DNA of 38,283 bases, taken from assembly GCA_026418995.1 (NCBI GenBank), contig JAOAAG010000149.1:1-38283 (forward strand). Reading direction: 5' to 3'. The position numbers and the translations under genes were made by a program. Source of the stretch: Anaerolineae bacterium (GTDB taxonomy: Bacteria > Chloroflexota > Anaerolineae > B4-G1). Under the pieces are notes generated by a model that was not told the DNA's origin, ran no database searches, and worked only from the letters and a program-made list of their open reading frames with translations. Within the stretch, counting starts at the first letter, position 1. Each line of letters opens with the position of its first letter. Shown here one piece after another: positions 29,631-30,594 of the stretch.

Positions 29631-29659
29631 ATTGTAGCAGCCCTTGCGCCTTTTGTCAA
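29631..29659 (-). promoter_or_regulatory. Promoter of tRNA-Glu
   Basis: Minus strand TTGACA (29654-29659)-17 bp-TACAAT (29631-29636). Confidence 0.8.
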
Positions 29660-29692
29660 ATGGCACACACAGGGCGCTGTAGGGGATAGCCC

Positions 29693-29721
29693 TTGACGGA
29701 AAATTTCAAACGAGGTATACT
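29693..29721 (+). promoter_or_regulatory. Promoter of the tRNA cluster
   Basis: TTGACG (29693-29698)-17 bp-TATACT (29716-29721); the first tRNA begins at 29731. Confidence 0.8.
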
Positions 29722-29730
29722 TAAACACGC

Positions 29731-29803
29731 CGGGGTGTGGCGCAGAAGGAAGCGCGCTGCGTTTGGGACGCAGAGGTCGCCGGTTCAAGTCCGGCCGCCC
29801 CGA
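29731..29803 (+). tRNA. tRNA-Pro (anticodon TGG)
   Basis: Acceptor CGGGGTG/CGCCCCG; anticodon stem CTGCG-TTTGGGA-CGCAG; T-arm CCGGTTCAAGTCCGG. Confidence 0.95.
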
Positions 29804-29805
29804 CC

Positions 29806-29876
29806 GCGGGCGTTGCAAAATGGTATTGCCACAGCCTTCCAAGCTGTTGTTGCGGGTTCGATTCCCGCCGCCCGCT
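29806..29876 (+). tRNA. tRNA-Gly (anticodon TCC)
   Basis: Acceptor GCGGGCG/CGCCCGC; anticodon stem ACAGC-CTTCCAA-GCTGT; T-arm GCGGGTTCGATTCCCGC. Confidence 0.95.
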
Positions 29877-29883
29877 CTTCATT

Positions 29884-30161
29884 GGGCCCATAGCTCAGCG
29901 GTCAGAGCAGCCGGCTCGACGTATCGGGCTGCCTGGAGGGAAACTTCCAGGTGACACCTGCCAAATTCGGGGAAGCCTGTGTCTACGGACTGGTGATCCC
30001 GAGCCAAGCCCGCAAGGGAAGGTGTAGAGACCGGACGGCAGGCACCCTCGGCGTGGACCAGGGTGAAGGGACGGTCCAGCCCACAAACCCGTAAGGGGCG
30101 ACGAAAGTCGTAGTTGGGATGCATAACCGGTCGGTCCCAGGTTCGAATCCTGGTGGGCCCA
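29884..30161 (+). tRNA. Intron-containing tRNA(CAU), probably tRNA-Ile2 (elongator Met not excluded); exons 29884-29916 and 30122-30161
   Basis: Spliced: GGGCCCATAGCTCAGCGGTCAGAGCAGCCGGCT|CATAACCGGTCGGTCCCAGGTTCGAATCCTGGTGGGCCCA, a perfect 73-nt cloverleaf. The fully paired acceptor argues against initiator tRNA; C4-G69 and C5-G68 favour Ile2. Confidence 0.9.
29917..30121 (+). ncRNA. Group I self-splicing intron (IC3-like, 205 nt, no ORF) inside tRNA(CAU)
   Basis: P1 CGGCU|CGA-cgua-UCGGGCUG with U.G at 29916/29927; P2 CCUGGAGG-GAAA-CUUCCAGG; P3 CCUGCC/GGCAGG; P4 UCGGG/CCCGA; P6 CCC-GCAA-GGG; P7 GACCG/CGGUC; P8 ACCCU/AGGGU; P9 CGAC-GAAA-GUCG; P9.0 CCCA/UGGG; terminal G at 30121. P/Q/R/S-like AAAUUCGGGGAAGCC, CCCGAGCCAAGC, GGUGUAGAGACCGGACGGCA, AAGGGACGGUCCA. 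Confidence 0.92.
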
Positions 30162-30167
30162 CTGCAA

Positions 30168-30239
30168 TGGGGCGTGGCCAAGTGGCAAGGCAACGGACTT
30201 TGAATCCGTGTATCGCAGGTTCGAATCCTGTCGCCCCAG
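30168..30239 (+). tRNA. tRNA-Gln (anticodon TTG)
   Basis: TGGGGCGTGGCCAAGTGGCAAGGCAACGGACTTTGAATCCGT...CAGGTTCGAATCCTGTCGCCCCAG; anticodon loop CTTTGAA. Confidence 0.95.
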
Positions 30240-30594
30240 CCTGACCCTTCAGGCCGGGGGTGTAGTGACCTGGACGAAGCTGCTCGCCGCTGCAGAGTAC
30301 AGCGGGATAACGTGTGGCGACTGCTTTCCACGGTCCTACGCTCAGCCTGGATACCACGCGCCTTATCCCCCGTTTCTCCCAGAGTATAGGGTTGTTCCCT
30401 CAACCGTTTGAGCGGGTGTCAAGCGATCGGGTGCATCTGCTCATCCATCCCACTGACAAAAGCTTCCTTCCGGGAAAAGTGAAGATGTTCTCACCCTCGA
30501 GCTTAGATTCCTGTTTATGATCCTGTGCTCCCTGCAGGAGACCGAGGCGAGCTTGCTGACAACAGGCGCGCACTCGTCCGTCGGATGCTCAGAT

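Follow-up and report, generated by a model that had tools for sequence, protein, structure and literature searches.

The gene for tRNA-Ile2(CAU) in the window, the 38,283-nucleotide stretch of an Anaerolineae contig analysed here, is interrupted by a compact group I intron. In all likelihood, this is a self-splicing intron, probably of the IC3 type, inserted between U33 and C34 (33/34) of the only Ile2(CAU) gene found in the genome and most likely derived from a mobile intron with an antisense HNH-like gene that has since been lost. It is a known kind of element and one of a large, little-described set in Chloroflexota. The Rfam model of group I introns (Intron_gpI, RF00028) matches positions 29893-30094 of the plus strand with 51.0 bits (gathering score 50, E = 3e-10), and no second Rfam family overlaps this segment at its gathering score. 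Thus, the search by which the preliminary description had proposed to check its reading of a 205-nt group I intron bears this reading out (Table 1). Apart from the model score, the affiliation with RF00028 is indicated by the P3-P9 core with a P3/P7 pseudoknot and by the U.G wobble combined with a terminal G. The placement in subgroup IC3, which is characterised by a compact core without a P5abc extension and by likeness to known bacterial tRNA introns, is tentative: P5 forms a short hairpin, and the core is alignable with those of other tRNA introns.

Table 1. Features of the tRNA cluster and of the group I intron, in window positions
Feature	Position	Strand	Basis
Sigma-70-like promoter, TTGACG-17-TATACT, upstream of the tRNA cluster	29693-29721	+	Consensus match only (10 of 12)
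tRNA-Pro(UGG), first gene of the cluster	29731-29805	+	ARAGORN, Rfam
tRNA-Gly(UCC)	29806-29877	+	ARAGORN, Rfam
tRNA-Ile2(CAU) 5' exon, tRNA positions 1-33, ends in U33	29884-29916	+	ARAGORN with introns allowed, ortholog junctions
P1: 29912-29916 with 29927-29931 (U29916.G29927 wobble); extension 29917-29919 with 29924-29926	29912-29931	+	By eye; not in the minimum-energy fold
Group I (IC3-like) intron, 205 nt, terminal G at 30121	29917-30121	+	Rfam, ARAGORN with introns allowed, covariation
P2, 8 bp, GAAA tetraloop 29940-29943	29932-29951	+	Sequence, fold
P3 (29957-29962 with 30037-30042) enclosing P4 (29967-29972/29997-30002), P5 (29975-29977/29992-29994) and P6 (30003-30005/30021-30023)	29957-30042	+	Rfam, covariation
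P7: 30029-30033 (GACCG) with 30072-30076 (CGGUC); compensatory relative to related introns	30029-30076	+	Covariation
P8: 30043-30048 with 30060-30065	30043-30065	+	Rfam, covariation
P9.0/P9 domain: 30080-30083/30115-30118; hairpin 30088-30097 (GUAA loop); P9 hairpin 30098-30111 (GAAA loop)	30080-30118	+	Covariation
tRNA-Ile2(CAU) 3' exon, tRNA positions 34-73; CAU anticodon 30122-30124; no encoded CCA	30122-30161	+	ARAGORN
tRNA-Gln(UUG)	30168-30241	+	ARAGORN, Rfam

The U29916.G29927 wobble at the 5' splice site and the terminal G30121, both given in the preliminary description and both present in the sequence, agree with the group I rule; in the orthologs, likewise, a U precedes the intron and a G ends it. 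Because positions 29917 and 30122 are both C, the joined tRNA would be identical if both splice sites were located one base downstream, after C34. Such a shift is highly improbable, however: the intron would then end in C instead of G and the U.G wobble of the splice site would be replaced by C-G, the G before the CAU is kept in all relatives, and the introns of several relatives begin with T, so that no such shift is possible there. With the junctions at U33/C34, removal of the intron leaves a 73-nt tRNA that forms a perfect cloverleaf, as initially claimed, and is scored by ARAGORN at 124.0.

The helices P3, P4, P6, P7, P8 and P9 that had been paired by eye are all supported, together with P5, by covariation among six orthologous introns. 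In the alignment of these introns, 97% of the cells are paired under a structure that includes the P3/P7 pseudoknot, and the covariation score is 0.167 vs 0.108 in shuffles (none of 500 reaches the observed value); sliding the helix partners abolishes the signal. Two positions of P7 are compensatory, and at one of these only the window has the change, from U-A to C-G; the core helices are all kept in the five other genomes. The fold of the pre-tRNA is unusually stable (z = -3.84, none of 200 shuffles equally stable); the minimum-energy fold, which cannot hold pseudoknots, favours a helix competing with P1. The sequence contains GAAA tetraloops on both P2 and P9 (29940-29943 and 30103-30106), in agreement with the preliminary description, a GCAA loop on the P6 extension and a GUAA loop on the hairpin that precedes P9.

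Plain ARAGORN misses the split gene and lists just its neighbours for Pro, Gly and Gln; once introns are permitted, the program also recovers a tRNA(cat) with a 205-nt intron, so that the four-tRNA cluster described previously consists of Pro(UGG), Gly(UCC), Ile2(CAU) and Gln(UUG). The host genome is a 3.85 Mb MAG (96% complete, 5.0% contamination). As the genes for tRNA-fMet (L031) and elongator tRNA-Met (L032) are located elsewhere in this genome, which also encodes TilS (173.8 bits), the third CAU gene, the one in the window, is identified as tRNA-Ile2 and is predicted to decode AUA. This tRNA carries C4-G69 and C5-G68 pairs, which are determinants of the Escherichia coli tRNA-Ile2. No further Ile2 candidate was found in the 96% complete MAG, and the reading of AUA should therefore depend on splicing of the intron; the interrupted gene should be essential. 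The alternative of a tRNA pseudogene whose intron has decayed and no longer splices, to which the absence of an endonuclease and the drift of the P5 strings away from some relatives could point, is very unlikely given that this is the sole Ile2 gene found, that all core helices are intact and that the changes in P7 are compensatory. The strings in question (CCUAAG...UAUGG) are missing from P5 in the window and in many other relatives as well.

Two further features of the host genome can be mentioned. A divergent pair of sigma-70-like promoters (consensus match) is located at 29631-29721 of the window, between the tRNA-Glu and tRNA-Pro genes. Genes for tRNA-Ile(GAU) and tRNA-Ala(UGC) were not found in the MAG; these genes usually form part of rRNA operons, and the assembly may lack such operons.

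The intron RNA very probably cuts itself out of the tRNA. Under the proposed scheme, in which both the chemistry and splicing in vivo are predicted from the sequence, the internal guide (29927-29931) would pair with the end of the 5' exon to form P1, with the U.G wobble at the splice site. A guanosine bound in P7 would attack after U29916, the freed U29916 would attack after the terminal G30121, and the exons would join into the 73-nt tRNA, the C34 of which would be modified by TilS to allow AUA reading. The ancestor of the intron would be a mobile one, with an antisense HNH-like homing endonuclease gene in the P1 loop that was lost from the copy in the window.

Introns at the identical site are present in six genomes, namely that of the host and five others among 60 relatives, and orthologs at 33/34 of Ile2 are represented in both the family and the order. 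A pattern search recovered an intact Ile2 anticodon arm in 47 of the 60 relatives and in none of the six intron carriers. Within the same family, the Pro-Gly-Ile2 cluster exists with an uninterrupted Ile2 gene (L227-L234), in one case together with Gln (L227). A named carrier is Thermoflexia bacterium isolate G79 (L039 = G778), which, because of the equal intron length, may be the same organism as G007.

Most of the long Ile2 introns (604-627 nt) contain, in the P1 loop, an antisense ORF that encodes about 121-131 aa, including zinc-finger and FHH...NCH motifs, and the stop codon of which overlaps the 5' splice junction in several members. An antisense HNH-like ORF is found in Patescibacteria as well. 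The pN/pS values are between 0.13 and 0.42 in all pairs, with synonymous sites near saturation, which points to purifying selection on the antisense protein. The best Pfam HNH match is below the cut-off (E = 0.0023, 18.5 vs 21.4 bits), and the motifs combined with these weak scores suggest an HNH-like homing endonuclease. A truncated antisense ORF remains in the 335-nt intron of G042, a short stretch of the 3' end of the ORF remains in the introns of G034, G007 and G022 (251-288 nt), and the 205-nt intron of the window retains no remnant. The series of endonuclease-bearing, remnant-containing and bare introns is observed; its direction from gain to loss and the homing activity are inferred. 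Because the orthologs encode the antisense HNH-like protein in the P1 loop, the absence of the endonuclease looks derived, and the window intron has most likely arisen from a mobile intron that lost its endonuclease. The earlier statement that it contains no ORF or homing endonuclease holds for the endonuclease but not literally for ORFs: mechanically called minus-strand ORFs cross the region and run antisense through the tRNAs, and inspection by eye revealed no HNH or LAGLIDADG motif in them.

In the census with a core model of the intron, few candidates per genome were scored and strict filters were applied, and therefore the genome counts are lower bounds. The model matches at least 59 of the 397 genomes of the class and at least 18 of the 399 drawn from the phylum; it also matches at least 41 of 399 genomes from the phylum of Methylophaga and at least 62 of 290 from the phylum of a Yanofskybacteria genome, with the hits in these two sets classified in part. 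Nearly all hits in the class fall on one of four adjacent positions of a tRNA anticodon loop. Altogether, 146 introns were placed in anticodon loops and 16 loci lack an assignable splice junction; since the junctions were rebuilt by imposing the rule of a preceding U and a terminal G, the insertion positions depend on this rule. In Chloroflexota, the targets are Ile2 and fMet at 33/34; Leu(UAA), Arg(UCU) and Lys(UUU) at 34/35; Asn, Tyr and Lys(CUU) at 35/36; and Ile2 and Arg(UCU) at 36/37. Some of the isotype labels, which are those assigned by ARAGORN, are wrong; for example, calls such as His(atg) in Pseudomonadota were read as Arg(CCU) at 36/37. In a tree of 98 cores with weak deep branches, the introns cluster by target (12 changes vs 54.6 in shuffles). 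The window intron is not an isolated case because, in addition to the many introns in the class, the host genome itself contains a second one, of 246 nt, at 34/35 of the only tRNA-Arg(UCU) gene found (C185, 252-497; L141). The ARAGORN assignment of the latter gene to tRNA-Ser(GCU) was rejected given the lack of a long variable arm; the rule of a preceding U and a terminal G is consistent with Arg(UCU).

It appears somewhat more likely than not that group I introns have spread widely in the tRNA anticodon loops of Chloroflexota (and Patescibacteria), with each lineage mostly bound to a single tRNA, at a given one of the four adjacent phosphodiesters, and possessing a homing endonuclease of its own kind. 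The Ile2 33/34 lineage, with its unusual antisense HNH-like gene in the P1 loop and the stop codon lying over the 5' junction in several members, would then be shared between the two phyla by transfer, and the window would represent the final stage, in which an intron located in a presumably essential gene no longer has its endonuclease.

Several related elements were encountered in other contexts. An unannotated tRNA-Leu(UAA) gene with a group I intron is present in the enterobacterial resistance plasmid pCTX-M3 (NC_004464.2, L341, 2384-2682), where it adjoins an ATPase gene and aac(3)-IId. As many as 1263 plasmid records match the window intron, many of them with a stretch similar to the pCTX-M3 locus, and a Bradyrhizobium plasmid (NZ_CP094524.1, L342, 1425-1714) encodes a tRNA-Leu(UAA) with a 204-nt group I intron. 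A blastn search of phage records detected nothing similar to the intron. Further group I matches, in other relatives, are located in apparent 23S rRNA, as judged by eye (L113, L116, L117 and L121-L128), some with endonuclease-like ORFs; G015 contains three such matches close together in apparent 23S rRNA.

Group I introns in bacterial tRNA genes have been placed in cyanobacteria and in alpha- and beta-proteobacteria (PMC4033280), and a count from 2007 included four kinds of bacterial tRNA genes with such introns (PMC1995217). These introns have also been mentioned for a set of mostly CPR genomes (PMC8172020), and another study reports that the fMet or Ile2 genes of 36 genomes were missed by tRNAscan-SE owing to introns (PMC8450103). 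No description of tRNA group I introns in Chloroflexota was found in the literature, in a search that extended to few subscription papers and thus leaves their absence unproven; this result accords with the initial suggestion that the lineage may be little described in this respect. The window intron provides another very small natural ribozyme for work on splicing and folding, with an exon junction different from that of the Azoarcus intron. Furthermore, the standard tRNA search, plain ARAGORN in the case of the window, loses genes in Chloroflexota that should be essential, and the gradation from endonuclease-bearing to bare introns at one site is material for the study of intron gain, homing and decay.

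Among the known systems, the IC3 intron in the tRNA-Ile(CAU) gene of Azoarcus BH72 is compact and lacks an endonuclease gene. The resemblance to it suggested in the preliminary description stands with respect to the tRNA species, compactness, core architecture and similar core strings but does not extend to the insertion site. The guide of the Azoarcus intron pairs with the CAU anticodon as the 5'-exon tag (PMC6274277), so that this intron splices at 36/37, after the anticodon, whereas the window intron is located at 33/34. As a provisional lead, the identity to the Azoarcus sequence is about 60% (0.60) for the window intron and 0.67-0.69 for two Chloroflexota introns at 36/37. In Chloroflexota, six introns with a length of about 200 nt interrupt a CAU gene at 36/37, and five of these genes are Ile2-like by the acceptor stem; in the tree of cores, the Ile2 36/37 introns of Chloroflexota form a separate clade except for one row. 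Direct acquisition of an Azoarcus-type tRNA-Ile intron from Pseudomonadota would account for the same tRNA, the similar size and the apparently similar core strings but is extremely improbable. Apart from the difference in the insertion site, the window intron groups with the Chloroflexota Ile2 33/34 introns and apart from those at 36/37 (with weak deep branches), and the two Pseudomonadota Ile2 33/34 introns of the sample group with the Pseudomonadota Leu introns. Direct descent from the Azoarcus intron was rejected on the grounds of insertion site and tree. The group I introns that interrupt the tRNA-Ile2 genes of Acidovorax and Burkholderia (PMC8450103) share the tRNA species but belong to another phylum.

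The tRNA-fMet intron of Synechocystis (655 nt) encodes I-Ssp6803I, an endonuclease of the PD-(D/E)XK type (PMC1995217). Like the window intron, it occupies the anticodon region of a CAU tRNA, but the tRNA is a different one, and the Ile2 lineage has an unrelated antisense HNH-like gene or none. The fMet 33/34 introns of Chloroflexota and Patescibacteria encode 149-aa proteins of the I-Ssp6803I kind. One of these matches PDB 2ost (E = 4.9e-63), which is I-Ssp6803I and has the PDB title 'putative endonuclease'. Finally, the group I introns of tmRNA occupy four subsites in the T-loop, one of which is almost confined to Anaerolineae (PMC11915505). Similarly to the tRNA set, these introns use several neighbouring sites, usually after a U, although in the T-loop of tmRNA rather than in the anticodon loop of tRNA.
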